From Achromobacter sp. AONIH1 (GTDB lineage: Bacteria; Pseudomonadota; Gammaproteobacteria; Burkholderiales; Burkholderiaceae_B): a DNA stretch of 64,000 nucleotides. This document shows positions 10,712 to 38,437 of the stretch, in pieces. Location of the stretch: assembly GCF_002902905.1 (NCBI RefSeq), contig NZ_CP026124.1, forward strand, positions 806,001-870,000. Direction: 5' to 3'. How positions within the stretch are numbered: position 1 is the first letter of the stretch; each line of letters begins with the position of its first letter. The notes beneath the pieces were generated by a model. That model made no database searches and had not been told where the DNA came from. It saw only the letters and a program-made list of their open reading frames with translations. Position numbers and translations under genes: made by a program.

Positions 10712-11512
10712 ATGTTCATCCGCCTATTTGCCAACGCCCTGAGCGACATCAGCGCCGGCATGAAGCGTCTACCCCTGGTCGCCACCCTGGGATGGCAGGA
10801 CGTCCGTCAACGCTATCGACGCTCCATGCTCGGACCATTCTGGCTGACCATCAGCATGGGAGTCATGATAGGTACCATCGGTCTGGTTTTTGGACAGATT
10901 TTCAAAGCACCCACCGAGGAATATCTGCCGTTCCTCGCCGTCGGACTTATCCTTTGGGGGTTCATTTCGACTGCATTGACCGAGGGCTGCACCAATTTCA
11001 TCCAGGCCGATGCGATCATCAAGCAATTGCCCATCCCTCTGATCGTCCATGTCCTGCGACCAATCTGGCGTAACGTGATCATCCTCGCGCACAACTTTGC
11101 GATCTTCCCGATCGTGCTGTTCGTGATGGACAGGCCCGTCACAGAGACCATCTGGCTGGCCCTGCCCGGCTTCCTCCTGCTGCTGTTGAACCTGACCTGG
11201 CTATCGACGGCACTGGGCGTGGTGTGCGCCAGGTATCGTGACATCCCGCAGATCATTGCAAGCTTGATGCAGGTCGTCTTCTATCTGACGCCTATCATGT
11301 GGCTGCCAAACCTGCTGCCGGAGCGCGCTGGCATGTACATGCTCACGTTCAATCCATTCTTCCATTTGATCGAAATCGTCCGCGCGCCTTTGCTGGGCCA
11401 ACTTCCCAGCACCCAGAATTGGCTGGCAGCATGCGGCCTGGCCGTATTCGGCTGGACTCTGACTCTCGCCCTCTATGGGCGGTACCGTCGTCGTATCGCC
11501 TACTGGCTTTGA
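10712..11512 (+). CDS. wzm: ABC-2 type polysaccharide export permease (Wzm, system 1)
   Basis: A 266-residue inner-membrane permease. After a short cytoplasmic N-terminus it has GWQDVRQRYRRSMLGPFW, the amphipathic entry motif typical of Wzm/KpsM proteins, then about six hydrophobic segments with YLTPIMWLPNLLPE near the end. It pairs with the ATPase starting at 11541 to export a lipid-linked glycan completed in the cytoplasm. No Wzx or Wzy was found in this locus, so export is predicted to be ABC-dependent. Confidence 0.9.
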   Translation: MFIRLFANALSDISAGMKRLPLVATLGWQDVRQRYRRSMLGPFWLTISMGVMIGTIGLVFGQIFKAPTEEYLPFLAVGLILWGFISTALTEGCTNFIQADAIIKQLPIPLIVHVLRPIWRNVIILAHNFAIFPIVLFVMDRPVTETIWLALPGFLLLLLNLTWLSTALGVVCARYRDIPQIIASLMQVVFYLTPIMWLPNLLPERAGMYMLTFNPFFHLIEIVRAPLLGQLPSTQNWLAACGLAVFGWTLTLALYGRYRRRIAYWL

Positions 11513-11540
11513 CGCTCACTCATTGCAGTTATAGAAATCC

Positions 11541-12284
11541 ATGGCTTCAATCGAATTCGACCGTGTCTGTGTCGACTTTCCCATCTACAGCGCGAGTTCC
11601 AGGTCCATCAAGAAGCGTATTTTTCAGGTTGCGACGGGCGGGCAGATCAGTGCGGACGAGAATGGCCGCATCACCGTGCGAGCGCTGGAAAATCTGTCCT
11701 TCCACTTCAAGGATGGAGACCGCATCGGTCTGCTTGGTCATAACGGTGCAGGAAAGAGCACACTGCTTCGCCTGCTCAGTGGCGTCTATTCGCCGTCGAG
11801 TGGCTCGGCAAGAACCGTAGGCGAAATCGGTTCCTTGATCGACATCGGCTTCGGAATCGACGCAGAATCATCGGGGCGTGAGAATATTTTTCTGCGAGGG
11901 TCGCTGCTGGGCCTATCCCGTGCACAGATCAAGCAGCATATCGATGAAATCATTGATTTCTCGGAGCTTGGCGCTTTTATCGACATGCCCTTGCGCACGT
12001 ATTCCGCCGGCATGCATCTGCGTTTGGCCTTCTCTGTTTCAACCGTGATTCGCCCCGAAATCCTGTTGATGGATGAATGGCTGTCGGTAGGCGACGAGAG
12101 CTTCAAACACAAGGCCGAAGCTCGCTTGAACAACCTAGTCGCATCTACTAACATATTGGTCCTTGCGAGTCACTCGAAGAGTTTGATCTGCCATACCTGC
12201 AATCGGGTCATTTGGCTGGATCATGGAAAAATCAGGATGGATGGCAACGCGACAGACGTCGCGGACGCCTACTTCGGCCAATAA
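11541..12284 (+). CDS. wzt: ABC polysaccharide export ATPase (short Wzt, no C-terminal domain)
   Basis: A 247-residue nucleotide-binding subunit. It has Walker A GHNGAGKST (66-74), the signature YSAGMHLRLAF and Walker B ILLMDEWLSVGD. It ends soon after the ABC core and lacks the C-terminal carbohydrate-binding domain present in the second Wzt of this window (60.9-62.2 kb). In the family, short Wzt/KpsT forms do not need a terminal cap for export, so chain-length control here should differ from system 2. It acts with the Wzm just upstream. Confidence 0.9.
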   Translation: MASIEFDRVCVDFPIYSASSRSIKKRIFQVATGGQISADENGRITVRALENLSFHFKDGDRIGLLGHNGAGKSTLLRLLSGVYSPSSGSARTVGEIGSLIDIGFGIDAESSGRENIFLRGSLLGLSRAQIKQHIDEIIDFSELGAFIDMPLRTYSAGMHLRLAFSVSTVIRPEILLMDEWLSVGDESFKHKAEARLNNLVASTNILVLASHSKSLICHTCNRVIWLDHGKIRMDGNATDVADAYFGQ

Positions 12285-15682: not shown

Positions 15683-15694
15683 GGCAAGATTCAC

Positions 15695-16135
15695 ATGCAT
15701 GATCAACCGTACGAATCACTTGACTCCGTCATCGAACTAGTCGATCTCAGCAAGATTTCCGATCCACGCGGCAATCTGACCTTCATCGAAGGCAATCGGC
15801 ATGTTCCCTTTGACATCAAGCGGGTCTACTACCTGTACGACGTTCCGGGTGGCGAGATGCGCGCCGGACACGCGCACCACCAGCTGCAACAACTCATCAT
15901 CGGCATATCCGGGAGCTTCGATCTCGTCCTGGACAACGGCTACGAGCGTCGCACGATCACATGCAACCGCCCCTTCCGCGGCGTGCTGATGAAATCGCTC
16001 GTATGGCGCGAATTGAACAACTTCTCCTCCGGCGCCGTGTGCCTGGTGCTCGCGTCGATGCCATACGAAGAGTCTGACTACATCCGAGATTATCAAGACT
16101 TTCTCAAAACCGTCGAACAGAGACGACTGAAATGA
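15695..16135 (+). CDS. fdtA: dTDP-4-oxo-6-deoxyhexose 3,4-ketoisomerase (FdtA/QdtA type)
   Basis: This 146-residue single-domain cupin moves the keto group of the RmlB product from C4 to C3, preparing it for transamination. The start has the family pattern LVDLSKISDPRGNLTFIEG, followed by RVYYLYDVPGGEMRAGHAHH with His 59, 61 and 62 as likely active-site residues. FdtA (galacto product) and QdtA (gluco product) cannot be told apart by eye. Its stop overlaps the aminotransferase start as ATGA, the usual pairing for this pathway. Confidence 0.9.
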   Translation: MHDQPYESLDSVIELVDLSKISDPRGNLTFIEGNRHVPFDIKRVYYLYDVPGGEMRAGHAHHQLQQLIIGISGSFDLVLDNGYERRTITCNRPFRGVLMKSLVWRELNNFSSGAVCLVLASMPYEESDYIRDYQDFLKTVEQRRLK

Positions 16136-17235
16136 TCCCCTTCTTTGACATCCACGCCACTCACGCAGCAGTCGCAAACGAGCTGAAAGACGCTTTTGCC
16201 CGTGTGCTGGCAAGCGGCCACATCATCATGGGCAGCGAGCTTGAAAAGTTCGAGACGGAATTCGCGGCGTATTGCGGGGTCAAGCACTGCATTGGCGTTG
16301 GCAATGGCCTGGACGCTCTGGCGCTGGCCCTGCGCGCCCGGGGCATAGGCCCGGGCGACGAAGTCATCGTACCGTCGCAGACCTTCATCGCAACGTGGCT
16401 GGCCGTCAGCATGGTGGGCGCCACGCCAGTCCCCGTGGAGATCGATCCCGGAACATATGGCCTCGATACGAGCCGCATTGCGGCCGCGCTTACCGCGAAA
16501 ACGAAGGGCATCGTGCCGGTTCACCTATATGGCGCACCGGTGGACATGAAGGGGATCAGCGATATCGCGGCGCGGCACGGTCTCTTCGTCCTGGAAGACG
16601 CCGCGCAGGCGCATGGCGCCCAATATCTTGGCCGCCGCGCTGGCGCGCTGGGCGATGCCGCCGCCTTCAGTTTCTATCCGACAAAAAACCTCGGCGCACT
16701 GGGCGACGGCGGCGCGATCGTCACCAATGACGATCGCCTGGCGGCAGATCTGCGCCGCCTGCGCAACTACGGTTCCAACAAGAAGTACGTGCATGAAGTC
16801 GCGGGCGTCAATTCCCGGCTCGACGAACTGCAGGCGGCATTCTTGCGAGTCCGGCTTCGTACGCTGGATAAGGAGAACGATCAGCGTCGCGCCATCGCCG
16901 CCCGCTACACCGAAGGTCTGCGGACCCTCCCCGGCATCACGACGCCTGTCTCCGTCGCCGGCGCCGTGCCCGTCTATCACCTGTACGTCATCCGCAGCAA
17001 GCAACGCGATGCTCTGGCGGCATATCTGAACGAACACAAGATCGGCTGCCTGGTCCACTACCCGACGGCGCCTCACATGCAAGCAGCCTACGCAGAGCTC
17101 GCGCTGGCGCTAGACAGCCTGCCCCTGGCACGAGCGGCAGCGGCGGAGACCCTGTCCCTGCCGATGTGGCCCGGAATGTCCGAAGCGCAAGTCGACACGG
17201 TCATCGACCGCATACGCCAATTCTGCGCGCAGTAA
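16132..17235 (+). CDS. fdtB: dTDP-3-keto-6-deoxyhexose 3-aminotransferase (FdtB/QdtB type, DegT family)
   Basis: A 367-residue PLP-dependent DegT/DnrJ/EryC1/StrS aminotransferase. The PLP lysine is K185 in FYPTKNLGALGDGG, and VLEDAAQAHGA (153-163) holds the Asp that contacts the PLP nitrogen. Coupled to the ketoisomerase just upstream, it should give dTDP-3-amino-3,6-dideoxy-galactose or -glucose. An N-acyltransferase is needed to finish dTDP-Fuc3NAc or Qui3NAc; the only left-handed beta-helix candidate is 12 kb away at 29210. Confidence 0.92.
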   Translation: MIPFFDIHATHAAVANELKDAFARVLASGHIIMGSELEKFETEFAAYCGVKHCIGVGNGLDALALALRARGIGPGDEVIVPSQTFIATWLAVSMVGATPVPVEIDPGTYGLDTSRIAAALTAKTKGIVPVHLYGAPVDMKGISDIAARHGLFVLEDAAQAHGAQYLGRRAGALGDAAAFSFYPTKNLGALGDGGAIVTNDDRLAADLRRLRNYGSNKKYVHEVAGVNSRLDELQAAFLRVRLRTLDKENDQRRAIAARYTEGLRTLPGITTPVSVAGAVPVYHLYVIRSKQRDALAAYLNEHKIGCLVHYPTAPHMQAAYAELALALDSLPLARAAAAETLSLPMWPGMSEAQVDTVIDRIRQFCAQ

Positions 17236-20029: not shown

Positions 20030-20118
20030 ACGGGAGTGGCGTCATGGGGGGCAGCCAGAAACCGCGTCGAGCTTTCCCGCAACCGTGGGATTGCTCGCGT
20101 CTGCGCCAGCCCACGCAC

Positions 20119-20148
20119 ATGACGGTACATTCACTTCTCCACTAAAAT
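20119..20148 (+). promoter_or_regulatory. Candidate sigma-70 promoter for the eight-gene cassette
   Basis: ATGACG (20119-20124) and TAAAAT (20143-20148) are separated by 18 bases, in the 188-base gap before the cassette. The first gene starts at GTG 20218 with GGAGCG about eight bases upstream. This is a pattern match only. Confidence 0.35.
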
Positions 20149-20217
20149 AGACGCCTTTTCGCCAGGATTCGCCCACATCGCGGCCCGGCCTGCCCCTCAA
20201 TCCGGAGCGAACATTTC

Positions 20218-23586: not shown

Positions 23587-24020
23587 AGACGCTGCTCGTT
23601 CACCCACTGTTTCTGATCGGCATCGCAATCCGATTGGCCATCGTCGCCGGCGCGATCTCGCAGCCGGTCGTGGATTGGTACGCGCCCTTTCTGTCCACCA
23701 GCGTTTCGCAATGGAACATGGACCCCTGGGGAGTATGGCTTGCCCACGGAGGAAGCCCGGCGGCTTTTCCGTATGGCTATGTCATGTGGCTGGTCTTTCT
23801 GCCGCTCACGCTGCTGGGCAAGCTCGTGGGCATGGCGCCGGAGCACGCCTACGCGCTGACACTAGGGCTGGTTGACGTCGCCCTGCTGGCAGTGCTGCGG
23901 CGTCTGCTCCCCGGCCGCGACCGCATGCTCCTCCTGGTTTACTGGTTTTCTCCGATCACGCTGGTCGCCACCTACTGGCTTGGGTACAACGATCTGGTGC
24001 CCGTCGCCCTGCGACGCTGA
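23583..24020 (+). pseudogene. N-terminal membrane part of a GT-C/kinase fusion, interrupted by a frameshift
   Basis: This 145-codon stretch begins at ATG 23583 (ATGA overlap with the GDPD-like gene) and encodes membrane helices plus QWNMDPWGVWLAHGG, like the first loop of GT-C mannosyltransferase-like proteins. It stops at 24018-24020 in the middle of a helix-like run (YWLGYNDLVPVALRR). The continuation lies one frame over: from about 24011 that frame reads ATLTLYCIRHQKNWTAG and leads without a stop into the ORF ending at 25624. One missing base near 24008-24013 would restore a 680-residue protein. It could be sequencing error, real inactivation or phase variation. Confidence 0.7.
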
Positions 24021-24097
24021 CCCTCTACTGCATCCGCCATCAAAAGAACTGGACGGCAGGCCTGGCACTTGCCGCTGCCATCTCAGCCAAGCTGAGC

Positions 24098-25624: not shown

Positions 25625-26376
25625 TGAAAATCTACGCACCCGATCGGTTCGATCGCCTTCCTGACGCAATTCTGTTCGACACGGATAACACGCTCTATCC
25701 GTACGATCCGGCCCATGCGGCCGCGCAACAGGCCGTGCGCGAGAAAGTCTCGACGACTTTCTCGATCCGACCTGAAGAATTCGACACAGCGTTCAAGCAG
25801 GCCCGGGATGAAGTCAAATCCCGCTTGCAGCACACCGCGTCCTCGCACAGCCGTTTGTTGTATCTGCAACGCATGCTGGAGATCATGGGCTTGGGGTCAC
25901 AAGTGCTTCTTGCGCTGGATTTTGAACAAACCTATTGGCGCACCTTCCTCAGCAATGCCATCTTGTTTGATGACGTCAAAGAACTTCTGGATGACCTGCG
26001 CCTGCTCGGCATTCCGACTGCCATCGTTACGGATCTAACGGCGCAGATCCAGTTTCGCAAGGTCGTCTATTTTGGCTTGGACCAGTACTTCGATTACATC
26101 GTCACCAGCGAAGAAGCGGGTTTCGACAAGCCGCACCCGGCGCCGTTCACCATTGCGCTGGAAAAGATGCGTCCCAAAGGCAACACGATTTGGATGATCG
26201 GCGACAATCCAGTCAATGACATTCGAGGGGGCCGCGAGACGATCAATGCAGTTACTTTGCAGAAGATCCACCCCGGCACCCCTCTAGGCGAAGGCGAAAA
26301 CGCCCCGGAAGCGTCTTTCAGCAGTTTTTCGGCGTTACGCCGTCTCGTCGCTCAACTGGGGCAAAAGCAATCATGA
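25621..26376 (+). CDS. HAD-superfamily hydrolase (phosphatase/nucleotidase-like)
   Basis: A 251-residue HAD protein. Motif I is DTDNTLYPYD with nucleophile D20 and D22, motif II is IVTDLT, the Lys of motif III is in FDKPHPAPF and motif IV is MIGDNPVNDIRG. The helical cap between motifs I and II suggests a small phosphorylated metabolite. In the cassette it may remove phosphate from an aldolase or kinase product. ATG 25621 overlaps the kinase stop by four bases; the longer frame from 25396 is rejected. Confidence 0.86.
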   Translation: MMKIYAPDRFDRLPDAILFDTDNTLYPYDPAHAAAQQAVREKVSTTFSIRPEEFDTAFKQARDEVKSRLQHTASSHSRLLYLQRMLEIMGLGSQVLLALDFEQTYWRTFLSNAILFDDVKELLDDLRLLGIPTAIVTDLTAQIQFRKVVYFGLDQYFDYIVTSEEAGFDKPHPAPFTIALEKMRPKGNTIWMIGDNPVNDIRGGRETINAVTLQKIHPGTPLGEGENAPEASFSSFSALRRLVAQLGQKQS

Positions 26377-27410
26377 CTTCCCCAAATACCTCTTTGCATG
26401 CCGCTATCGTGGACTTCTGCGCCAGAATCGGCCGGGACCGGCTTTTGGTCCAGGGTGCAGGCGGCAATGTTTCGTACAAGAGCAATGGCGCGCTGTGGAT
26501 AAAGGCCTCCGGTACCTGGCTAGCCGACGCTGCCAGCCAGGAAATTTTCGTGCCCGTCGACCTGGCTCATCTCCAATCGGCCATCGCACGGGATGATTTC
26601 GAAGTATCGCCAATCTCCCGCGACGTCGATGCACGGTTGCGCCCATCGATAGAAACGCTGCTGCACGCCCTCTTGCCCCATGCTGTCGTCGCCCATCTGC
26701 ACGAGATCAACGCCCTGGTCCATCTGGTCCAAAAAGACTGCGAAATGCTGCTGCAAGAACGACTGGGCGATTCTTGTGAATGGGTGCTGGTGGACTATCA
26801 CAAGCCTGGCGCCCCGTTGGCTGTCGCTGTGGCGCGTCAGTTGAAAGACCGGCCCGGCGCAGACGTCGTATTCCTGCGCAATCACGGCGTGGTCATCGGC
26901 GCAAGAACGGTTGAAGAAGCGGACAGGCTGCTATCTCTGCTCACGACGCAGCTACGCACGAAGGCCCACGATATTGGGCTGCCTTGTGTCGCCCCGCCGT
27001 CCCATGACGTGGAGGCCATGAAAAACCAGTCCTACATTCTGCTGCAGGACGAGGCATTGACCGAACTGGTCCACGACCGCGATCTGTATGCCCGACTGGA
27101 CAATTCCTGGGCGCTGTATCCAGATCACGTCGTATTCCTAGGCCCCATCGCCCAGACATATGACTCCGTTGCCGATTGCTTGGGCCGCATGCCGCAGCAT
27201 CGGGACCTCGGCTATCCCATTTTCATACGCGACGTCGGCGTCTTCGTGCCCGAGGCGTTCAACCGCGCCCGACATGAGCAGTTGAGGTGCTACTACGACG
27301 TACTGGCGCGGCTGACACCGGATGCCATCACTACGACCTTGTCCAGGACCGACATCGCCTCCCTGCTGAATTGGGATGCGGAGCGCTATCGCATCGGGCA
27401 CGCAAAATGA
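26373..27410 (+). CDS. Class II aldolase/adducin-family protein
   Basis: A 345-residue protein whose first two thirds match zinc-dependent class II aldolases of the RhaD/FucA/AraD type: GAGGNVSYKSNGALWIKASG near the N-terminus (substrate phosphate loop), VVAHLHEINAL with two metal His, and FLRNHGVVIGA with a third. The C-terminal third (about 110 residues) is longer than in simple aldolases and unrecognised. A role in making or splitting a sugar or polyol phosphate for the nucleotidyltransferase is inferred from the cassette. ATGA overlaps at both ends. Confidence 0.82.
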   Translation: MTSPNTSLHAAIVDFCARIGRDRLLVQGAGGNVSYKSNGALWIKASGTWLADAASQEIFVPVDLAHLQSAIARDDFEVSPISRDVDARLRPSIETLLHALLPHAVVAHLHEINALVHLVQKDCEMLLQERLGDSCEWVLVDYHKPGAPLAVAVARQLKDRPGADVVFLRNHGVVIGARTVEEADRLLSLLTTQLRTKAHDIGLPCVAPPSHDVEAMKNQSYILLQDEALTELVHDRDLYARLDNSWALYPDHVVFLGPIAQTYDSVADCLGRMPQHRDLGYPIFIRDVGVFVPEAFNRARHEQLRCYYDVLARLTPDAITTTLSRTDIASLLNWDAERYRIGHAK

Positions 27411-29092
27411 CACAGCAAGCGTCTATGCCCTTCTCACCCCCCGCTACACATAGGTCGCCCATCAACTGGCTAGCCATTGCCTGCTACGCAGGCTGCGCCG
27501 CCATCGTGCTGCTCCTGTTTTACGAGAATTTTCTCTTTTCGGAAAAATTGGGGCGCCTCGCATCGAGAACGGTGGACGATCTTGCTTTTCAACTCGCCTT
27601 GCGAGACGCGCATACGTCCATAGCCTCCGGACAGTTTTCCAAACTCTGGATCCTAAATTATTATGCCTATGGCTGGCTTTACTGGGCGCCACTCGCCTGG
27701 ATAACCTATCCGCTATATCTGATCTCGTCCTATTTCGGTATCGACTGGCCGCTGATTGTCGTGCCACGCCAGGTCTCTCTTCTATTCGCGCTGGGAGGCG
27801 CCTACTTTCTGCGCAAGATCGTCAAGCGATTCACGCAAAACGAAGCGATCTGCGCCACAGCCGCCCTCATTTATCTGTTATTTCCTGCCATCGCCTTTTT
27901 TTCCATGCGATTCGGCACCGTCACAGAGATTTCGTTCCTGTCGATCCTGAGCGCGTATCTGCTGTTGCGCGACAAAGCATCATCATTCCGGGCCTTGGCG
28001 CCTGCAGTGATAGTCCTTGCCGCGGCTGGGGCCGTCAAGCTCAGCGGGCTGCTCATCGCTCCATTCCTGTTTCTGATCATCGTCAGGCGTCTCATCGGAA
28101 AACCTGTCTGGCACATGCTAGGCACTCTGTTCGCGTTGGGCTCATTGTTCGTCGCAACACTGATCCTTTTGACTAATCCGGCGCTTCTGGCAGCCCCATT
28201 TCATCCCCAGATTCTGCATGACTATTTGGGAGTGTTAAAGCACCACATGCAGGTAACGCAAGTCAGCGGCCTGAACATCAGCCCCTGGCGCCGCTTCTAT
28301 GAGGCTACTTTCCATTCGTGGCTCAATGCCACCGCGATGTTTTTGCTGAGGCTCGGCCTGGTCGTTCACACCCGCCATAGCGTCTCAAGGCGCTTCGAAT
28401 GTTTGGCTGCGCTGATTACCCTCGCGGTCGTCATGGCCTATTTGATATTCGGCATCAAATCCGAAGTCAGCGCCGGCTCCTATTTCACCGCGGTCTCTTT
28501 CCTTATTGCTATCGGCGTGATCGGTTGGCAGCGGTCGGCGGGAGGCGCAGCCGTCCTATTCCTGATCGTCGCACTGCTGGTAAGTGACGTCGCCTTGAGA
28601 GTGCAACGACAAACTGCCATGACCGCCATGGCGGAGTTTCCCTGGAACCACGCGACTTATCTGGTCCAGTCTCTGCGCTCGAAGCCGATCAATAAACGTG
28701 CCGATTTCATAGAAAACTGCATTGCCGCCGACGCCGGCAGCCAGCCGATAAGCCAGATTTTCTACGACTACGAAGTAGCCCCCCCGTTCAACGCCTTATC
28801 CATGCCCAACACCTGCTTTTCAGTAGCGTGGGGCGACCTGTCGCCCGCGGGCACGTACTGTGACAGATCCAATCCTATCCAGTACATTTTGCTGAGTCTG
28901 ACTGCTCCCGGCTTTATGGACGAGGCGGCATTCAACAAACGAATAGCTGGCTTGGAGCCGAGCGTAGTCCAGCGGATGCAACAAGACCGCAGTACGCGCA
29001 CGACGTTGGCCGAGCAAGGATTGTTTGGCGACCAGAAGTTCGTCCGTTTATGCAGCGGCGCGGATGTCGCGATCTTCAAGGCCAAGCCATAG
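27407..29092 (+). CDS. GT-C-like polytopic membrane glycosyltransferase
   Basis: A 561-residue inner-membrane protein with about ten hydrophobic segments through residue 420 and a soluble C-terminal domain. The first periplasmic loop holds RTVDDLAFQLALRDAH with a DD pair like the catalytic loop of PMT/ArnT-type GT-C enzymes, and ILNYYAYGWLYWAPLAW follows. Expected job: use the flipped polyprenyl-phosphate donor to decorate a glycan in the periplasm. It is the last gene of the ATGA-coupled cassette. Confidence 0.74.
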   Translation: MTQQASMPFSPPATHRSPINWLAIACYAGCAAIVLLLFYENFLFSEKLGRLASRTVDDLAFQLALRDAHTSIASGQFSKLWILNYYAYGWLYWAPLAWITYPLYLISSYFGIDWPLIVVPRQVSLLFALGGAYFLRKIVKRFTQNEAICATAALIYLLFPAIAFFSMRFGTVTEISFLSILSAYLLLRDKASSFRALAPAVIVLAAAGAVKLSGLLIAPFLFLIIVRRLIGKPVWHMLGTLFALGSLFVATLILLTNPALLAAPFHPQILHDYLGVLKHHMQVTQVSGLNISPWRRFYEATFHSWLNATAMFLLRLGLVVHTRHSVSRRFECLAALITLAVVMAYLIFGIKSEVSAGSYFTAVSFLIAIGVIGWQRSAGGAAVLFLIVALLVSDVALRVQRQTAMTAMAEFPWNHATYLVQSLRSKPINKRADFIENCIAADAGSQPISQIFYDYEVAPPFNALSMPNTCFSVAWGDLSPAGTYCDRSNPIQYILLSLTAPGFMDEAAFNKRIAGLEPSVVQRMQQDRSTRTTLAEQGLFGDQKFVRLCSGADVAIFKAKP

Positions 29093-29209
29093 ATCTGGCT
29101 GTCGACGGGTCAAGCGCGACAACGTCGTCGCGTTTTCCCGTTGCCTTTCAGATACAACCTGTTGGCCTGTAAATCGCCTTTCCATGTCCACCACGCAAAG
29201 GAATTTTCA

Positions 29210-29965
29210 ATGATCCACTCAACCGCCATCATTTCTCCCGAAGCCAAGCTTGGCAGCAACGTTTCCATTGGCCCTTACTCCATCATCTACCCCAACACCG
29301 TCATTGGCGACAACACCACAATCGGCTCTCACTGTGAGATCGGCCATCCGACGCCCCTGGCCCAGGGAGTCCCGCTGACTCTGGGAGCCGGCAGCCTGAT
29401 CCGTTCGCACAGCATCTTCTACGAAGGCTCGACGTTTGGCGAAAAGTTGGTCACCGGCCACCGCGTCACCGCACGCGAAGCAACCCGGGCCGGCGTGAAC
29501 TTCCAGATTGGCACGCTTTGCGACATCCAAGGCCATTGCTCCATCGGAGACTACGTCCGCTTTCACAGCAATGTACACATCGGGCAGCATTCCACCATCG
29601 GCAATTTCGTCTGGATCTTCCCCTATGTGGTGCTGACCAATGATCCTCATCCTCCCAGCGAAGTGATGTCGGGAGCGACGGTGCAAGACTATGCTGCCAT
29701 CGCCACCATGTCGATCTTGCTACCGGGCGTTACGGTCGGCAAGGGCGCTCTGGTGGGAGCCCACAGCTCGGTCAACCGGGATGTCGCAGCGGATACCGTG
29801 GTCGCCGGCAGCCCGGCCAAGTTCATTTGCGAAACCAGCAAGGTCAAACTCAAAGATGGCTCCGGCAATGCCGCCTATCCTTGGCGCAAGCACTTCCATC
29901 GCGGCTATCCCGAAGAAGTGGTCACCGCCTGGCTGAACGAATTCAGCCCTCCTGCGTCCAACTAG
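29210..29965 (+). CDS. Left-handed beta-helix acyltransferase (hexapeptide repeat)
   Basis: The 251-residue protein has a run of hexapeptide-type repeats from residue 1 to about 200 (IHSTAIISPEAKLGSNVSIG, then AAIATMSILLPGVTVGKGAL later). It closely follows the layout of nucleotide-amino-sugar N-acyltransferases, with a tail containing YPWRKHFHRGYPEEV. ATG 29210 is supported by AAAGGA eight bases upstream. It is the best candidate for N-acetylating the dTDP-3-amino sugar made by FdtA/FdtB, though it is separated from them by 12 kb; an O-acyltransferase role is possible. Confidence 0.82.
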   Translation: MIHSTAIISPEAKLGSNVSIGPYSIIYPNTVIGDNTTIGSHCEIGHPTPLAQGVPLTLGAGSLIRSHSIFYEGSTFGEKLVTGHRVTAREATRAGVNFQIGTLCDIQGHCSIGDYVRFHSNVHIGQHSTIGNFVWIFPYVVLTNDPHPPSEVMSGATVQDYAAIATMSILLPGVTVGKGALVGAHSSVNRDVAADTVVAGSPAKFICETSKVKLKDGSGNAAYPWRKHFHRGYPEEVVTAWLNEFSPPASN

Positions 29966-30265: not shown

Positions 30266-31765
30266 ATGACAAAACCGCCAATTCTTCGTCGCTTGGGCAA
30301 CAAGCTGATTGCCACCGATGAACTCGTCGCACGGTTCGACAGCGCCGGAATCCAGCTTGAGGACCTGCAGTCCCGACTGGAGGCGACCGAGCAGATTTCC
30401 CTCAAGCTGGACACCCGGACCGAAGCGCTTGCCAGCGAATTGCAGCGAGAGCAACAGGCGTTACGCGCCATGGTTGCACAATTCAACGATCAGCTGAAAG
30501 CGAACGAAATACACGGAATTCAGTTACACAAACGCGTTGAACAATTGCAGGAACAACTGCTCGCAATCCGCGCGGACCTGGGTCAATTGCCGTCCTACGC
30601 CCAGCTCAACGCGAACCTGGCCGCCCTGCCCGACCGGTTCAAGCAAGATTGCGTGGACCTGCTTCAGTACCACGTCGAACATGACCAGGCGCCCCGCCTG
30701 CGCCCGCCCATACGGCCACGGAAGAACGAAGAGCCCGTGATCGACAAGATCGCGTTCCTGGTCCACTCGAAGGAATTGCTGAACCATTTCTCATGTATCT
30801 GGGATGCACTGCCCCAGGACAGCTTCGACGTGCTGCTGCACGGCGAAGCCGATTTACCGGCCGGGGAAGCCTTTGCTCCCTGGCATTGCCAGGTCTTCCA
30901 TACGACGGACATACTCGGCAAGAAGCTCAAGTATCGATATCTGGTGTCGAATCATCCCGTCGACACCTCGGGCGAACCGTTGATCAAGCGACTGGCCCAG
31001 GTCAACGTGCGTTTCATGTACGCTGCGGGAAAATCAGGCTGGAACCTCTCCAGCTGGAATGCCCTGTACGACGTCATTCTTTGCTTTGGCCCTTATCACG
31101 CGGGGTATTTCTCCCGGCACACCAAGGCAACCATCGTGCAGATCGGGTACCCGCGGCTGGACCGTTACTTCACGTCGCCGTCGGATGCCGCCGCGTTGTC
31201 ATCCTCGCTCGGATGCGCCCCGGACAAGAAAACCGTCGTCTGGCTGCCCACGCACGGCGCCGTCTCGTCCCTAGGCCATTTCAACGAGGAAATCGCCGCC
31301 CTGACAGAGCGCTACAACGTGCTGGTCAAGGTGCATCCATTGACGCCCCGCTCTGATCCCGCCGCGATTGACGCCCTGTCGCAGCTGCCCTTCACGCGAT
31401 TGATCGTGGACTCGACCGACAACCTGCCGCTCTACCAGATCGCGGACTACATGCTGTTCGACTACGGCGGCCCGCCGTTGGCCGGCATTTACACGAACAA
31501 GAAAATGATCTTGTTGAACATCCCGGGAGCCGAGCAGGACGCGCTGATCGGCCGACACTCTCCAGATGCCTTGCTGCGCAACTACATCATCGCGGTTGAG
31601 CCGCAGATGCAGGCCATCGCCGGGTTGCTGGAAAACGACTCGGTCTGGGATCAACAAGCGCAAATGCGCAGCGATCTGCGCAGCCTCTATTTCGCTCCGT
31701 ATTTTGGCTTCTCCACCCAGGTCGCGGCGCAAACATTACTGAACCTGGATCGCGTTCTGGAATAG
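30266..31765 (+). CDS. CDP-glycerol glycerophosphotransferase-like protein with N-terminal coiled coil
   Basis: A 499-residue protein. Residues about 30-108 form a heptad-rich coiled coil; the rest matches the TagB/TagF glycerophosphotransferase fold: IAFLVHSKELLNHF, VVWLPTHGAVSSLGHFNEE, LVKVHPLTPRSD and DYMLFDYGGPPLAGIYTNK. The last stretch replaces the usual DYSS with DYGG, so it is a diverged member. TagB/F enzymes use a CDP-activated donor, and the next genes make a CDP-linked phosphoramidate, so it is a candidate transferase of that group or of a glycerol-phosphate acceptor. This is inference from neighbours. Confidence 0.78.
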   Translation: MTKPPILRRLGNKLIATDELVARFDSAGIQLEDLQSRLEATEQISLKLDTRTEALASELQREQQALRAMVAQFNDQLKANEIHGIQLHKRVEQLQEQLLAIRADLGQLPSYAQLNANLAALPDRFKQDCVDLLQYHVEHDQAPRLRPPIRPRKNEEPVIDKIAFLVHSKELLNHFSCIWDALPQDSFDVLLHGEADLPAGEAFAPWHCQVFHTTDILGKKLKYRYLVSNHPVDTSGEPLIKRLAQVNVRFMYAAGKSGWNLSSWNALYDVILCFGPYHAGYFSRHTKATIVQIGYPRLDRYFTSPSDAAALSSSLGCAPDKKTVVWLPTHGAVSSLGHFNEEIAALTERYNVLVKVHPLTPRSDPAAIDALSQLPFTRLIVDSTDNLPLYQIADYMLFDYGGPPLAGIYTNKKMILLNIPGAEQDALIGRHSPDALLRNYIIAVEPQMQAIAGLLENDSVWDQQAQMRSDLRSLYFAPYFGFSTQVAAQTLLNLDRVLE

Positions 31766-31822: not shown

Positions 31823-32341
31823 ATGGTCATATGGTTGATCGGCCTGTCCGGCTCCGGCAAGACCACGCTAGGCAAGGAGATCGCGCGCCTCTGGCGTGGC
31901 CTCGCTGCCAATACGGTCCTGCTTGACGGCGACGAATTGCGGCGCGTCTTCGCGCATGACCAGACCGATGCCGCCTATTCGGTCGAAGGGCGACGAGCCA
32001 ACGCCGAACGCATGACCGCGCTATGCGAAATGCTCGATCGCCAAGGAATCAATGTCGTGTGCTGCATCCTGTCCCTCTTCCCCGACATGCGCACGCAGAA
32101 CCGCGAGCGGTTCAGCCGCTACTTTGAGGTATTCATGGATGCAAGCATGGAAGCGCTGCTACGGCGCGACACCAAGGGCTTGTACCAAGATGCACTGACA
32201 GGCGCGCGCCCCAATGTGGTCGGCGTCGATATTCCCTTTCCGCGACCAGAAACGGCCGACCTCACGATTTCCACATCGGGACCAGAGCCGGACATGACAC
32301 AACTGGCCCGGCACGTGCTGGGCAAGGCCGGCATCGCATGA
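31823..32341 (+). CDS. CysC-like kinase, predicted cytidine diphosphoramidate kinase
   Basis: A 172-residue P-loop kinase of the adenylylsulfate kinase family, with GLSGSGKTT at 7-15 and LLDGDELRRVF with the acidic substrate pair. No other sulfate-activation genes are near. The cluster (glutamine kinase, amidohydrolase, cytidylyltransferase) matches the C. jejuni MeOPN pathway, where CysC-like Cj1415 phosphorylates the 3'-OH of cytidine diphosphoramidate. By that established analogy this is predicted to be the same kinase. GGAGAG precedes the start by six bases. Its stop overlaps the next ATG (ATGA). Confidence 0.82.
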   Translation: MVIWLIGLSGSGKTTLGKEIARLWRGLAANTVLLDGDELRRVFAHDQTDAAYSVEGRRANAERMTALCEMLDRQGINVVCCILSLFPDMRTQNRERFSRYFEVFMDASMEALLRRDTKGLYQDALTGARPNVVGVDIPFPRPETADLTISTSGPEPDMTQLARHVLGKAGIA

Positions 32342-32904
32342 CGCCCACCGATACCCCGCAATATCCCTACGATCGCGGCGCACTGCTGGACGAGCGCAAT
32401 ACCTACTCCTACACCCGCTTTGAAGGACGGGAGTTTCTATGCGCCTGGCGTTCAGCCCGACAGAACTGCGGCCTGGAGACAACTCCGCGCGCCACAAGGT
32501 CGGATGTGGTTTCGTGCCCGACCCATTCGCTATTGGCTCGCCTGACACGGCAACTGGCGCATGCACCGGACGCCTCGGCTTACGCAACCCTGGACCGCCT
32601 GCTGCAAAGGTTCGAGGTTTCAAAACGCCTACACGGACAATACGACGCCTCGTGGCGCCCTACGGACCCTGAGGACTTCAGGGATCTGGAACGATATCTA
32701 TTGTTCGCCGAAGCGCTGGTTCTGGGCTACGAACGGACGCAACGCCTGCAATATCTGAACGCTCTGCTGAAATGCATGGACACGCTTTCCGCGTACATAG
32801 GCGCCCTGGACGTTGATCAGATGAACAGGCTACGCCAACTGCTGAGACATGAACGCGACGCTATCGCCGCCTTGAGCGCACGCCTGCAAGTGACACTCCC
32901 ATGA
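32338..32904 (+). CDS. Unrecognised 188-residue protein of the phosphoramidate operon
   Basis: No family is recognised. The N-terminal third contains YPYDRGALLDERNTYSYTRF and two Cys (CAWRSARQNC); the rest looks all-helical, with FRDLERYLLFAEALVLGYER and a final helix EMNRL-like run rich in Leu/Arg. There is no signal peptide or membrane segment. ATGA overlaps with both neighbours show it is translated as part of the operon, so a dedicated role in making or modifying the phosphoramidate unit, or as partner of the following formyltransferase-fold protein, is likely but unproven. Confidence 0.7.
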   Translation: MTPTDTPQYPYDRGALLDERNTYSYTRFEGREFLCAWRSARQNCGLETTPRATRSDVVSCPTHSLLARLTRQLAHAPDASAYATLDRLLQRFEVSKRLHGQYDASWRPTDPEDFRDLERYLLFAEALVLGYERTQRLQYLNALLKCMDTLSAYIGALDVDQMNRLRQLLRHERDAIAALSARLQVTLP

Positions 32905-33632
32905 TCCTGGACGACGTACTGCTGCTCGCCGCGCCGACCAGCCGCTCTCAAGCCTACCTCCAGGCGCTCGTGGCGCATGACATGCTGCCCGGGCATGTGG
33001 TGCTGATGGGCGACCAACGCCCCAAGCCCAACCCCTCCCTGCCGGTCCTGGAACCCGCGATCGTCGACCTGTTGCTGCCCAGGTTGGACGAACCCTTGCT
33101 GCAGACCTGCGCGACGTCAGGCATTTCCCATGAAACCTGCGATGCCCGCAACGTCAACGACGCGGCAATCGCGGACATCATCCGTTCCATCCAGCCGCGC
33201 GTGGTCATTTATTCCGGCTTTGGCGGTCAAATCGTGGGGGAAGCCATCCTCTCGCTCGGACCACGGTTCCTGCATATGCACTCCGGGGATATACCAACGT
33301 ACCGAGGCAGCACGACGCTGTACTATGCGCTCCTGAACGGCGACCACCCGACAGTGACGGCACTGTTCCTGGATCCCCGCATAGACACGGGCCCCATCGT
33401 GGCTCGTCGGACGTACCCCAAGCCTCCGGCCGGAGCCGACATCGATCACCAGTATGACTCGGCAATCCGGGCGGACCTGCTTCTGCGCGTGATGCGAACT
33501 CGGCTTCTGGCCAACGGCATGATCGACGCGCAGCCGCAACCCCAAGTCGAAGATCCGCCCTACTACGTGATACACCCCGTGCTCAAGCACCTTGCCGTCC
33601 TCTCCCTTGAATCACGGCCCGACCATGCCTGA
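32901..33632 (+). CDS. Formyltransferase-fold protein with altered catalytic triad
   Basis: A 243-residue protein of the formyl transferase family (Fmt, GART and sugar N-formyltransferases). The signature region is FLHMHSGDIPTYRGSTTLYY, followed by LDPRIDTGPIV. In canonical enzymes the triad is Asn-His-Asp; here the His (127) and Asp (162) are kept but the Asn position is His 125. Sugar formyltransferases use N10-formyl-tetrahydrofolate. Whether this one formylates an amine, carries another one-carbon group or is catalytically changed is unknown. It is coupled to the unknown gene upstream and overlaps the glutamine kinase start by eight bases. Confidence 0.8.
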   Translation: MILDDVLLLAAPTSRSQAYLQALVAHDMLPGHVVLMGDQRPKPNPSLPVLEPAIVDLLLPRLDEPLLQTCATSGISHETCDARNVNDAAIADIIRSIQPRVVIYSGFGGQIVGEAILSLGPRFLHMHSGDIPTYRGSTTLYYALLNGDHPTVTALFLDPRIDTGPIVARRTYPKPPAGADIDHQYDSAIRADLLLRVMRTRLLANGMIDAQPQPQVEDPPYYVIHPVLKHLAVLSLESRPDHA

Positions 33633-36042
33633 AACCCGCACGTCTCATGATGCCGCGCACGCCCGGCTGTTCACATTCGGCAGCAAGGCGGAAACCCTGC
33701 AAACCCTCAAGGGCAGGCTCACGCAGGCCACCGTGCCCGACAGCTACTTTTTCTCGATCCAGGAGTGGCAAGCTTCCAGGCCGCGGATCCTGCAGCGTAT
33801 CCGCGACCAATTCCAAGGCGCGAAGCTGGCCGTGCGTAGCAGCGCGTTGATCGAGGATGGCGCCAACGAATCGATGGCAGGCGCCTTCCTCAGCCTGCAA
33901 CATGTCAATGGCGCGAGCCCCGGCGACGTGACCGACGCCATCACCCGCGTCATGCAATCCATGACCGGCAACCCCCAGGACCAAGTGCTCGTGCAGCCGA
34001 TGATCGAGGACATCGCGGTCAACGGCGTCATCATGACGTATGACATGGTGCATGGCACGCCCTACTACTGCATCGATTTCGACGACGAGAGCGGCAGGAC
34101 CGACACCATCACAGGCGGCAGCGTCATCAACAAGGGGCTTTTCGTCTACCGTCACGCCGAACCTGGCTTGCTGCGCTCTCCCCGCATTCTGCGCTTCCTG
34201 CAATTGGCGAAAGAACTGGAATCCCTGTGCGCATGCCTCGCACTGGACATCGAATTCGGCCTGGATCGCACGGGAAAACTCTATCTGTTCCAAGTCCGCC
34301 GGATGGCTAGGGCCCGACACTGGCATCCCGTTACCGAACGCCGCGTCGCCCGACAGCTGGAGTTCGTCGAGCGCTTTGTCCAGGAATGCTCCCTGCCTCG
34401 TGAAGGCGTGGTCGGCGAGCGGACGATTCTGGCCATCATGCCCGATTGGAATCCAGCGGAGCTGATCGGCACAACGCCGCAACCACTGTCATCTTCTCTC
34501 TATAGAACGCTCATTACCCGCAGCACCTGGCGCGAAGCGCGCGCCGAGATGGGCTACCAGGAGCTGGGTGATGGCGAACTCATGTATCTCATCAACAGCC
34601 ATCCATATATTGACGTGCGGATGAGCTTCAACTCTTTCCTGCCTGAGGGCCTGGACCGCGACACGGGCGGCAAGCTCGTGAGCGCCTGGATGAACCGGCT
34701 GGAGTCTTGCCCGGAACTACACGACAAGATTGAATTTGACATCGTTCCGACATGCCTGGATTTCTGCTTCGAACATGATTTCTCGGAGCGCTATCCAAAC
34801 ATTCTCTCGACCGCAGAACGTGAACAGTACACGCAGGCGCTGCGCATCCTGACCAGAAACGCGATCGGGCCGAAGCAGGACTCCACACTGGACCGGGCCC
34901 TGGAACTCGCCGCACAACTGGACGCGCTACGGCTGACTGATGTGAATCACGCGGAACCGCATGCCTTCCTGGTCCGTGCCAGTCACTTGTTGAAGGCCTG
35001 CCGCCGTCTCGGCGTAAAACCATTCGCGGTTGCTGCCAGGCATGCGTTCATTGCCGAGGCGCTGTTGCGTTCTGCGGTGCGTCGCAATGGCTTGCGGCAG
35101 GAGCGCCTGGATGAGTTCAAGCGCAGCATACGCACCATCACTGGCAACATCGTCAACGAGTACTCACAGGTCTGTCATGGCGAGATCTCCCGGGAGGACT
35201 TCCTGACACGCTATGGACACCTGCGTCCCGGCACCTACGAGATCACTTCGCTGCGATATGACGAACGAGACGATCTGTTCCACGATCAGGCGCCACAACT
35301 TGCTCATTCAACGACGCCCGTTTTCTCCATGAACGAGGATGAATGCACTGCGATCGACGGATTGCTGCGCGAATGCGGGCTCGATGTTCTGAATTCACGA
35401 CAGCTGCTGGCCTACGCCGCCCGCGCCATTGCGGCGCGGGAGCAGATCAAGTTCATCTTTTCCAGAACACTGTCCAATGCGCTCTCCGACCTGGTGTCCT
35501 GGGGTGAGAAAATCGGCTTGTCGCGTGAAGATCTCTCATTCCTGGACTGGGCTTCTATCGAGTCCAGTCTCACGGTACCGCCCATGGACTTTCTGGATCG
35601 CCACTATCTGGCGCAGGTCGCGGCCTCGCGCATCCAGATGGAAGCCGCACATGAGTTCAAGCTTGCTCATATCATTTTCAGCGTTCGGGATATCTATGTC
35701 GCAACACTGAATCGCAGCATCCCCAATTTCGTGGGCACAGGGGCGGCGTCCGGACGCATCGTGAAGCTGACTGCCGAGATGTCTGCGCGTGTGAACATCC
35801 AGGGCATGATCGTCTGTATCGAGAACGCAGACCCGGGATTCGACTGGATCTTTACCCAACACCCGGCAGCGCTGGTCACCCGTTTCGGCGGCGCCAACTC
35901 GCACATGGCGATACGCTGCGCGGAATTCGGCCTTCCCGCTGCCATAGGCTGCGGGGACAGTCTCTACGCGCGGCTGACGCAAGCTGGCGCAGCGGAACTG
36001 AACTGCGCAGAGAAGATTCTTAGGCCCTTGCATGCAAAATGA
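33625..36042 (+). CDS. L-glutamine kinase-like (PEP-synthase-type), Cj1418 counterpart
   Basis: An 805-residue protein. The N-terminal domain is PPDK/PEP-synthase-like ATP-grasp with AVRSSALIEDGANESMAG at 69-86; the C-terminal phosphohistidine swivel domain has GGANSHMAIRCAEFGLPA with His 760 as the phosphocarrier. The two-domain form, lacking the PEP-binding barrel of true PEP synthase, matches C. jejuni Cj1418, which phosphorylates the amide nitrogen of L-glutamine. The operon has the next two enzymes directly downstream, which makes this reading much more likely than PEP metabolism. ATG 33625 is preferred to a TTG at 33592. Confidence 0.85.
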   Translation: MPETRTSHDAAHARLFTFGSKAETLQTLKGRLTQATVPDSYFFSIQEWQASRPRILQRIRDQFQGAKLAVRSSALIEDGANESMAGAFLSLQHVNGASPGDVTDAITRVMQSMTGNPQDQVLVQPMIEDIAVNGVIMTYDMVHGTPYYCIDFDDESGRTDTITGGSVINKGLFVYRHAEPGLLRSPRILRFLQLAKELESLCACLALDIEFGLDRTGKLYLFQVRRMARARHWHPVTERRVARQLEFVERFVQECSLPREGVVGERTILAIMPDWNPAELIGTTPQPLSSSLYRTLITRSTWREARAEMGYQELGDGELMYLINSHPYIDVRMSFNSFLPEGLDRDTGGKLVSAWMNRLESCPELHDKIEFDIVPTCLDFCFEHDFSERYPNILSTAEREQYTQALRILTRNAIGPKQDSTLDRALELAAQLDALRLTDVNHAEPHAFLVRASHLLKACRRLGVKPFAVAARHAFIAEALLRSAVRRNGLRQERLDEFKRSIRTITGNIVNEYSQVCHGEISREDFLTRYGHLRPGTYEITSLRYDERDDLFHDQAPQLAHSTTPVFSMNEDECTAIDGLLRECGLDVLNSRQLLAYAARAIAAREQIKFIFSRTLSNALSDLVSWGEKIGLSREDLSFLDWASIESSLTVPPMDFLDRHYLAQVAASRIQMEAAHEFKLAHIIFSVRDIYVATLNRSIPNFVGTGAASGRIVKLTAEMSARVNIQGMIVCIENADPGFDWIFTQHPAALVTRFGGANSHMAIRCAEFGLPAAIGCGDSLYARLTQAGAAELNCAEKILRPLHAK

Positions 36043-36631
36043 ACGCCGCCTCGGCATTACCATGCGCATCGTGCACGCCGAAAACTATCGTGAACCGCGC
36101 GACGCACTGGCCCAGGACTGGCACAGGTTCATGGCGGTGGCTCTGCCTGGCCTGGTCTGGCTGCCTGTACCCAATCTGGGACCGGAAGATTCCCGGCGCT
36201 TCTGCGAGCGTTGGCGGCTGGATGGCTTGATTCTGTCAGGAGGCGAAGACATCGGCGCCGCGCCCTTGCGCGATGCCACCGAACTGGCCCTCCTGGATTG
36301 GGCCGAGTCACAAGGCATGCCCGTGCTCGGCATTTGCCGCGGCCTGCAGTTGATGGTGTATCGCGCAGGCGTCGACAACATCCCCGTACCCGGACACATC
36401 GCAACGCGCCATGGTATCCAGGGTCGATATAGCGGCGAAGTGAACAGCTTTCACAGCAAGGCGCCGGCTACTTGCCCTGCCGGCTATCAGGTTCTTGCCA
36501 CCGCCGATGACGGCACTCTGGAAGGACTCGCCCACGAGCGCCTGCGATGGGAGGGCTGGATGTGGCATCCAGAACGCGAATCTACGCCTGATCCAAGAGA
36601 TCTTGCCAGTATCAGGAGGCTGTTTGCATGA
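36032..36631 (+). CDS. Class I glutamine amidotransferase-like hydrolase, Cj1417 counterpart
   Basis: A 199-residue class I GATase-fold hydrolase with oxyanion strand LILSGGEDIG (67-75), nucleophile C102 in GICRGLQLM and the His-Glu pair in WHPERE (H179, E181). In C. jejuni the counterpart Cj1417 cleaves CDP-L-glutamine to glutamate and cytidine diphosphoramidate. The start at 36032, overlapping the kinase by 11 bases, is preferred to ATG 36062 because the residues before it (LGITMRI) form the first beta strand of this fold. It has an ATGA overlap with the cytidylyltransferase. Confidence 0.86.
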   Translation: MQNERRLGITMRIVHAENYREPRDALAQDWHRFMAVALPGLVWLPVPNLGPEDSRRFCERWRLDGLILSGGEDIGAAPLRDATELALLDWAESQGMPVLGICRGLQLMVYRAGVDNIPVPGHIATRHGIQGRYSGEVNSFHSKAPATCPAGYQVLATADDGTLEGLAHERLRWEGWMWHPERESTPDPRDLASIRRLFA

Positions 36632-37356
36632 AGGCTATCATTCTCGCGGCTGGCCGCGGCAGCCGCATGGGCGGCTTGACGGATACGCAACCCAAAGGGC
36701 TCGTGAGCTTGCGAGGCAAGCCGCTGCTTGAATGGCAGTTGGCGTCGCTGCGGGCGGCTGGCATCCATGAAATCGCGCTAGTCACCGGCTACCGACACGA
36801 AGCCTTGTCCCCTTACGGCCTGCCCATGTTTCACAATCCCGACTGGCGGCGAACCAATATGGTGACGTCGCTGGCATGCGCTCGCGAATGGCTGCAGGCA
36901 GAAGCCTGCATCGTGAGCTATTCCGATATTTTCTACGAAGCAAACGCTGTCCGTAAACTCATGGACAGCGACGCAGCCCTCGCACTGACATACGATCCGG
37001 ACTGGCTGCGACTATGGCAGGCGCGCTTTGATTGCCCGCTGTCGGACGCTGAAACGTTCCGCGTGTCCGATGGCGGCAGGCTGCTGGAAATTGGCAGCAA
37101 GCCTTCAAGCGTGGAAGAAGTCCAAGGCCAATACATGGGATTATTACGATTCACGCCCGCCGGTTGGGCCATGCTTGAGCGCTTGCGGGCCAGCTTGGAC
37201 GATTCTGAGCGCGATTCACTGCATATGACCGGCGCCATCCAAAGGGCGTTGGCGCTGGACGCGCTGCCCATTGCAGCGATCCCCTATACGGGGAAATGGG
37301 GCGAAGTCGATTCCGCAAGCGATCTCGCCCTGTACGAGTCCCTCGCACTTCCTTAG
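36628..37356 (+). CDS. Nucleotidyltransferase, predicted CTP:phosphoglutamine cytidylyltransferase (Cj1416 counterpart)
   Basis: A 242-residue nucleotidyltransferase with the N-terminal signature LAAGRGSRMGGLT (6-18), KGLVSLRGKPLLEWQL, a metal-site YSDIFYE and a final GKWGEVDSASDLALYE. In C. jejuni, Cj1416 couples L-glutamine phosphate with CTP to CDP-L-glutamine. The tight order kinase-hydrolase-nucleotidyltransferase here supports the same role; other phospho-substrates cannot be excluded from sequence alone. It is the last gene of locus 1 on the plus strand. Confidence 0.84.
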   Translation: MKAIILAAGRGSRMGGLTDTQPKGLVSLRGKPLLEWQLASLRAAGIHEIALVTGYRHEALSPYGLPMFHNPDWRRTNMVTSLACAREWLQAEACIVSYSDIFYEANAVRKLMDSDAALALTYDPDWLRLWQARFDCPLSDAETFRVSDGGRLLEIGSKPSSVEEVQGQYMGLLRFTPAGWAMLERLRASLDDSERDSLHMTGAIQRALALDALPIAAIPYTGKWGEVDSASDLALYESLALP

Positions 37357-37435: not shown

Positions 37436-38437
37436 TCAATTCACCCCAGCTGCGTGCGCCTGCTCGTCCGCATGGTACGAAGACCGCACCATCGCCCCCA
37501 CCGCCGCATGCGAGAACCCCATCGCATAGGCCTCGCGCTCGAACATCGCGAAGGTGTCCGGATGCACGTAGCGCAGCACCGGCAGATGGTGCTCCGACGG
37601 CTGCAGGTACTGGCCGATGGTCAGCATGTCCACGTTGTGCTCGCGCATGTCGCGCATCACCTGCAGGATTTCCTCGTCGGTCTCGCCCAGGCCCAGCATC
37701 AGGCCGGACTTGGTCGGCACCTCGGGATGCAGCTTCTTGAACTCGGCCAGCAGCTTCAGCGAGTGCAGGTAGTCCGAACCCGGACGAGCCTGCTTGTACA
37801 GGCGCGGCACGGTTTCCAGGTTGTGGTTCATGACGTCTGGAGGACCGGCGTTCAGGATGGTCAGCGCGCGGTCCAGGCGGCCGCGGAAGTCGGGCACCAG
37901 CACCTCGATGCGGGTGGTCGGCGACAGTTCGCGGATATGCGTGATGCAATCGACGAAATGGCCGGCGCCGCCGTCGCGCAGGTCGTCCCGGTCGACCGAG
38001 GTGATGACCACGTAGGACAGCTTCATCGCGGCGATGGTGCGCGCGAGGTTCTCGGGTTCCTTGGGGTCCAGCGGATCGGGACGTCCGTGGCCCACGTCAC
38101 AGAAGGGGCAGCGACGCGTGCACTTGTCGCCCATGATCATGAACGTGGCCGTGCCCTTGCCGAAGCATTCGCCGATGTTGGGGCAGGACGCTTCCTCGCA
38201 GACCGTGTGCAGGTTGTGCTCGCGCAGGATGCGCTTGATGTCGTAGAAGCGCGAGCCGGGCGCGGCGGCCTTGACGCGGATCCATTCCGGCTTCTTCAGG
38301 CGTTCGGCCGGAACGATCTTGATCGGAATGCGCGCGGTCTTGGCCTGCGACTTCTGCTTTTGCGTCGGATCGTAGGCCGCGGCGGAAGCGGCGGCGGATT
38401 CGTCCGAGGGGACAGGGGACTCGACAAGCGTGGACAT
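37436..38437 (-). CDS. lipA: Lipoyl synthase
   Basis: LipA is a radical-SAM enzyme that inserts two sulfurs into protein-bound octanoyl groups. The 333-residue product has both cluster motifs: the auxiliary cluster [12 protein letters not shown] and the SAM cluster CTRRCPFC. It is of usual length for the family, with a somewhat extended N-terminus. lipB lies about 2 kb away on the same strand, with a Sel1 gene and a plus-strand gene in between. Confidence 0.97.

Follow-up and report, generated by a model that had tools for sequence, protein, structure and literature searches.

Does a polysaccharide locus of Achromobacter sp. AONIH1 encode a complete route for decorating a surface glycan with phosphoramidate? 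The question is raised by an operon in a 64,000-nucleotide stretch of this genome, a single 6.65-Mb contig (NZ_CP026124.1, positions 806,001 to 870,000; referred to as the window). An earlier reading of the sequence alone (the original prediction) had recognized there the four enzymes that activate phosphoramidate for the capsule of Campylobacter jejuni. Few biological molecules contain a P–N bond, and the only biosynthetic route known in detail had been regarded as a peculiarity of Campylobacter. Our analysis indicates that the operon probably makes an activated phosphoramidate and places it on a surface glycan, O-antigen-like and exported by an ATP-binding cassette (ABC) transporter, with two proteins named here U188 and FMT forming a two-part enzyme that acts after the kinase CysC. 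We infer all of the substrates, the transferase and the role of U188–FMT from homology, gene linkage, conserved residues and protein folds.

Seven open frames lie in the order GlyP, CysC, U188, FMT, GlnK, GAT and NTP (CDP, cytidine diphosphate; GATase, glutamine amidotransferase).

30266..31765, + strand: GlyP, a PF04464 protein (39.3 bits), candidate phosphoramidate transferase
31823..32341, + strand: CysC-like P-loop kinase (NF004041, PF01583), predicted 3'-kinase of cytidine diphosphoramidate
32338..32904, + strand: U188, a helical protein of 188 residues with no known family, partner of FMT as judged from co-occurrence
32901..33632, + strand: FMT, a protein of formyltransferase fold with His125-x-His127 and Asp162
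33625..36042, + strand: GlnK, a glutamine kinase homologue with an ATP-grasp domain and the swivelling His760 (NF004508)
36032..36631, + strand: GAT, a class I GATase-type hydrolase, predicted gamma-glutamyl-CDP-amidate hydrolase (NF045546 as best model)
36628..37356, + strand: NTP, a nucleotidyltransferase, predicted CTP:phosphoglutamine cytidylyltransferase (NTP_transf_3, match to LicC)

The frames of CysC, GlnK, GAT and NTP each open with ATG, and the original prediction had placed these four genes correctly in one operon. It had passed over the two genes at 32338-32904 and 32901-33632 and the PF04464 gene at 30266-31765. From CysC onward, successive frames overlap by 4–11 bases, in the manner of translationally coupled genes of one operon, and GlyP ends 57 bases upstream of CysC. 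GlyP was analyzed from 30269 on, the codon after its start at 30266.

The assignment of the large kinase is supported by its family score. GlnK matches NF004508, a model that is itself named hypothetical protein, with 868.8 bits over residues 13–802, nearly its full length (cut-off 501), and models of phosphoenolpyruvate (PEP) synthases and rifampicin phosphotransferases give at most 40 bits. Three homologues with 60–62% identity are labelled 'glutamine kinase' by the Joint Genome Institute (JGI). His760, proposed earlier as the swivelling histidine, is invariant in an alignment of 17 sequences. GlnK thus appears to belong to the glutamine kinases, as had been proposed, and not to the PEP synthases or rifampicin phosphotransferases. 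The name also draws on the history of Cj1418, formerly annotated as PEP-synthase-like and since shown to phosphorylate glutamine, according to the available part of one report (PMC10971088).

For GAT, NF045546 is the best model (88.1 bits, under its cut-off of 250) and the PuuD model gives 28 bits. The claim that this hydrolase is not of the PuuD type is therefore favored by the comparison of scores and not secured by the curated threshold. All 37 cassette GATases match NF045546 at E ≤ 1e-8, and Cys102, pointed out in the original prediction, is invariant in 37 family members, together with His179 and Glu181. NTP matches NTP_transf_3 (82 bits), and its best match in the Protein Data Bank is the CTP:phosphocholine cytidylyltransferase LicC (1jyk, E 4e-12); no NCBIfam model is over its cut-off among the 25 listed of the 41 that match. 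CysC matches NF004041, named adenylyl-sulfate (APS) kinase, with 153.8 bits (cut-off 127) and PF01583 with 100 bits, and all 35 cassette homologues match NF004041 at E ≤ 1e-8. The specificities of CysC and NTP rest on context. The resemblance of the four proteins is not due to chance, as shown by the bit scores of the families and by the recurrence of the block, which is found in three more genomes of this genus and also in loci from many phyla. Judged by homology, they are likely to represent the four activation steps of C. jejuni, the core of the pathway.

In the proposed pathway, GlnK would phosphorylate the side-chain amide of glutamine and NTP would couple the phosphoglutamine to CMP. GAT would then remove glutamate to give cytidine diphosphoramidate, the 3'-hydroxyl of which would be phosphorylated by CysC. 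U188–FMT would act after CysC, most likely in a folate-dependent transfer of an acyl (formyl) group; the product would be a modified phosphoramidate with no O-methyl group. Finally, GlyP would use the CDP-linked donor to attach the phosphoramidate to a hydroxyl group of a sugar.

The system shares with the C. jejuni pathway for O-methyl phosphoramidate (Cj1415–Cj1418) the homologues of the four activation enzymes, the side-by-side placement of kinase, hydrolase and cytidylyltransferase, and the setting in a glycan locus. There are also clear differences. CysC comes first and apart in the window, with U188 and FMT inserted, and the glycan locus has its own ABC transporter. No gene of the methyltransferase families MT-A and MT-B (see below) is found in the window, no methyltransferase domain is found in the 20 window proteins scanned, and the transferase candidate is a PF04464 protein. 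The O-methyl form is unlikely here, and the original description of a complete pathway as in Campylobacter holds for the four homologues and not beyond them, as the specificities of CysC and NTP depend on context and the transferase is a candidate. Phosphoramidate free of O-methyl groups has been reported on the lipopolysaccharides of Xanthomonas and Shewanella, as described in the available portions of two papers (PMC3907429, PMC3210612), which give chemical structures and, in those portions, name no genes for them. Such a group, as on Xanthomonas campestris and Shewanella, would be the expected product if U188–FMT adds nothing. Glutamine-kinase homologues are present in Shewanella species, not necessarily in the strain of the chemical study. 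In the part available, a review of 2022 (PMC9561416) describes the glutamine kinase as 'C. jejuni-specific', a label that does not fit the present sequence record, where the GlnK family occurs in 14 named phyla.

To describe this distribution, the best 80 of at least 476 confirmed GlnK relatives were examined (loci are numbered with the prefix L). Many of these loci are from metagenome-assembled genomes, in which binning errors are possible, and several end at contig ends, so the counts of neighbors are understated. GAT is found in 69 of the 80, NTP in 68 and CysC in 59 (totals without a score floor). GlnK, GAT and NTP are contiguous in 55. CysC, U188 and FMT are contiguous in 30 loci and separated by one longer gap in 3 others, and this block stays whole whether it is located before or after GlnK, after NTP or on the opposite strand. 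The 80 loci span 14 named phyla, including one of archaea, and FMT occurs in 7 of these. Counts of GlyP, U188 and CysC in what follows use a floor of 60 bits, and those of FMT a floor of 100 bits. The latter gives 38 loci; L068 (33 bits) is excluded, and L096 (FMT apart from the cassette and without U188) and L023 (cut ahead of any U188) are included. Among the sequence sets, A2 omits L096, A4 and A5 are subsets of 37 and 35 rows, and rows L005 and L008 of one locus listing repeat the window.

Other genes accompany the cassette in some loci. The methyltransferase MT-A is present in 17 of the 80, often between NTP and CysC, and none of the 17 has FMT. MT-B is found in 12 loci, 8 with FMT and 4 with a protein named SG in the slot after CysC. 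The 54 loci with both CysC and NTP divide into 31 with FMT, 16 with MT-A, 4 with SG and 3 with none of these. SG (403–415 residues) stands in the position of U188–FMT in L065, L068, L072 and L085, with MT-B adjoining and FMT absent from all four. On reading its sequence, it has a likely N-terminal membrane helix, and its resemblance to SGNH proteins is weak: the L065 and L068 proteins score below the Pfam cut-off, and those of L072 and L085 have no match. On a quick tree of GlnK with long branches, the FMT, MT-A and SG labels need 8 changes, and the SG label needs 3, among FMT-bearing rows. Provided that the assignments are correct, decoration with phosphoramidate is a widespread trait and exists in at least three gene versions.

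U188 and FMT are a conserved pair that travels with this gene set in many phyla, a hint of a chemically different version of the tag, and their role is the main reason for further interest in the cassette. U188 is present in 36 of the 80 loci, always with FMT. The two lie within one open frame in 5 of the 36, and likewise in genome G166, where one open frame means that no stop codon separates them and separate starts are possible. The window U188 has no Pfam match, no Pfam family is matched by more than one of 39 members at E ≤ 0.5, and its structure model has a predicted local distance difference test score (pLDDT) of 91.8. FMT has the fold of the PF00551 formyltransferases, and all 50 listed matches are formyltransferases or folate-dependent formyl enzymes, including sugar N-formyltransferases. 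The catalytic Asn-x-His of PF00551 is absent, however, and His-x-His plus the Asp is found in all 41 FMT proteins. A motif scan of 13 PF00551 matches outside the cassette, from four carrier genomes, detected the motif in 8, each with Asn-x-His, and missed the other 5. Several U188 proteins (P0124, P0125, P0129 and others) are called methionyl-tRNA formyltransferase by JGI, though without such a Pfam domain; the labels were perhaps carried over from fused forms.

Among the closest known systems is the N-terminal domain of HypX, which transfers a formyl group from 10-formyl-tetrahydrofolate to coenzyme A. In comparison, FMT has no second domain and has U188 in its stead. A tentative possibility is that U188–FMT, as a new two-part enzyme, attaches a one-carbon unit, formyl, to the phosphoramidate nitrogen of 3'-phospho-cytidine-5'-diphosphoramidate, and that a PF04464 enzyme then transfers N-formyl-phosphoramidate to glycans. 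This would be a second phosphoramidate decoration with a distribution across many phyla, exchanged in other lineages for O-methylation or a variant that depends on SG. If the pathway assignments hold, the pair has a testable substrate. No account of U188–FMT with phosphoramidate was found in the open-access literature, which is weak evidence of absence. The supposition that the system had not been described for this lineage likewise met no contrary report in the part of the open-access literature covered.

Could FMT be an ordinary N-formyltransferase for the 3-amino sugar of the neighboring FdtA and FdtB, with U188 as its helper and a plain phosphoramidate as the product of the cassette? The clear formyltransferase fold, with sugar enzymes among its matches, is consistent with this, as are the associations of the genes: FMT accompanies FdtA in 15 of 16 loci and FdtB-type aminotransferases in 20 of 30. 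Moreover, the three related loci of the genus have FdtA and FdtB and no match to a hexapeptide acyltransferase profile in the 19–20 kb examined. On the other hand, FdtA is absent from 23 of the 38 FMT loci, and from 15 of the 25 that exceed 22 kb. L065 has FdtA and FdtB without FMT, and FMT, FdtA, FdtB and a hexapeptide gene occur all together in L021, L022 and L039. FMT follows U188 (36 of 38) and CysC (33 of 38) across phyla rather than one sugar, which makes the ordinary sugar enzyme an unlikely explanation.

It is similarly doubtful that U188–FMT is non-formylating and carries out a step of phosphoramidate transfer that is specific for the acceptor or the donor, with SG as its substitute in some genomes. 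The occupation of the same slot by SG in loci without FMT, its three changes among FMT-bearing rows of the tree, and the exchange of Asn for His in 41 of 41 proteins would fit such a role. However, every listed fold match of FMT is a formyl enzyme, two of the catalytic residues, the His and the Asp, are retained, GlyP is already available as a transferase in most near relatives, and SG is known from four loci only, with a weak family assignment of its own.

Least probable is a different product altogether, with the kinase family serving other pathways, CysC activating sulphate and the glycan receiving no phosphoramidate: the kinase does occur without GAT and NTP in 10 of the 80 loci (contig ends truncate several of them, whereas L059 and L078 are fully flanked) and on a Cupriavidus taiwanensis plasmid, and the genome has no APS-kinase family protein besides CysC, yet 55 of the 80 loci have the kinase in one contiguous run with GAT and NTP, the NF004041 match is common to all cassette CysC homologues, and no ATP sulphurylase was recognized beside CysC on reading the window frames, with no dedicated search.

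The preferred reading, an activated phosphoramidate transferred to a glycan, needs a transferase, and GlyP is the best candidate. PF04464 proteins move a phosphate-linked group from a CDP donor to a hydroxyl, so transfer of phosphoramidate from such a donor would be the natural reading of GlyP. It passes the family cut-off (22.1 bits) and shares motifs with the CDP-glycerol glycerophosphotransferases of PF04464, but it matches the model over residues 286–399 only. The GYPRxD, PT, HP and DxGG motifs are kept in 21 members, and what we take to be the DYSS-like motif reads DYGG. A GlyP-type gene is present in 24 of the 80 loci, within 250 bases directly upstream of CysC in 19. Among the 14 loci with GAT and NTP and without CysC, 13 were searched (the contig ends in L023), and a PF04464 gene, placed by coordinates, lies beside the cassette in 6 (L045, L046, L054, L056, L070, L096); in L070 an MT-A gene is located between the two. 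The Vibrio alfacsensis and Roseovarius pelagicus plasmids have GlnK-GAT-NTP with a PF04464-like neighbor, just below the cut-off in Roseovarius (21.2), and no CysC match in the stretch around GlnK. If the assignments hold, GlyP is a concrete candidate for the transfer step.

Several observations weigh against this reading. The likeness to Cj1415–Cj1418 is judged through family models. GAT falls far short of the curated NF045546 cut-off, and CysC, as the sole PF01583 match in its genome, is possibly a true APS kinase. The Asn-to-His change in FMT may imply a different reaction. A PF04464 gene is known in 27 of the 80 loci once L045, L054 and L064 are added from a search with the Pfam model, which covered part of the 80. 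Among 28 GlnK genomes searched whole, 9 have any PF04464 match, in the locus only in L064 and L065, so many cassettes must use another transferase. Once shared descent is allowed for, the exclusion between FMT and MT-A has no significance in an independent-pairs test (7 pairs: 0 same, 1.7 opposite, 5.3 without difference; median p 0.5), and with a quick, long-branched tree it can be read as a pattern but does not prove replacement. MT-A and MT-B have no match in the window or the three related loci, with the rest of the genome not searched for a methyltransferase.

Side observations concern GlnK relatives elsewhere. On the Roseovarius and Vibrio plasmids (L114:7296-10394 and L115:7446-10346), GlnK has an extra N-terminal nucleotidyltransferase-like stretch beside a separate NTP gene. 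The homologue on the Cupriavidus taiwanensis plasmid (L118:7944-10307) lies about 8 kb from nifK, with no GAT, NTP or CysC match nearby. Glutamine-kinase and GATase matches share one frame in L117:619-3684, a record from human faeces deposited as an unverified bacteriophage, which may be a bacterial contig. In L106, from a relative of the same class, the glutamine-kinase match has one in-frame TGA.

The setting in a polysaccharide locus was described correctly in the original prediction, and the glycan is probably an O-antigen rather than a capsule. The relevant neighbors are as follows.

10712..12284, + strand: ABC-transporter permease and ATPase of the glycan locus, presumably wzm/wzt (ABC2_membrane 49 bits, ABC_tran 69 bits)
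15686..17235, + strand: FdtA and FdtB, glycan context, which we take to belong to a dTDP-3-amino sugar pathway (PF05523 169 bits, PF01041 408 bits)
17243-18190: glycosyltransferase
37436-38437: lipoyl-synthase-like gene

Within the genus, GlnK is over the family cut-off in 4 of 37 genomes searched, including that of the window, and is therefore accessory. All four have GlyP-CysC-U188-FMT-GlnK-GAT-NTP, 0.1–3.5 kb from the same lipoyl-synthase gene, and none of the four loci has MT-A, MT-B or SG. The other three are compact, with the order ABC-transporter ATPase, GT61-like gene, FdtA, FdtB, glycosyltransferase, GlyP and the six further genes. Their lipoyl-synthase-like gene is 96–97% identical to that of the window and their ABC ATPase 78–80%; the permease is seen in one. 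Compared to these loci, the window has about 12 kb extra between the glycosyltransferase and GlyP (18284-29965), and nine genes from it found no match in the three when used as queries. This segment encodes a double NTP-transferase, a protein with a phosphoribulokinase/uridine-kinase domain, a HAD phosphatase, a class II aldolase and a hexapeptide acyltransferase. A single frame of 556 residues at 20218-21888 has two nucleotidyltransferase stretches in tandem.

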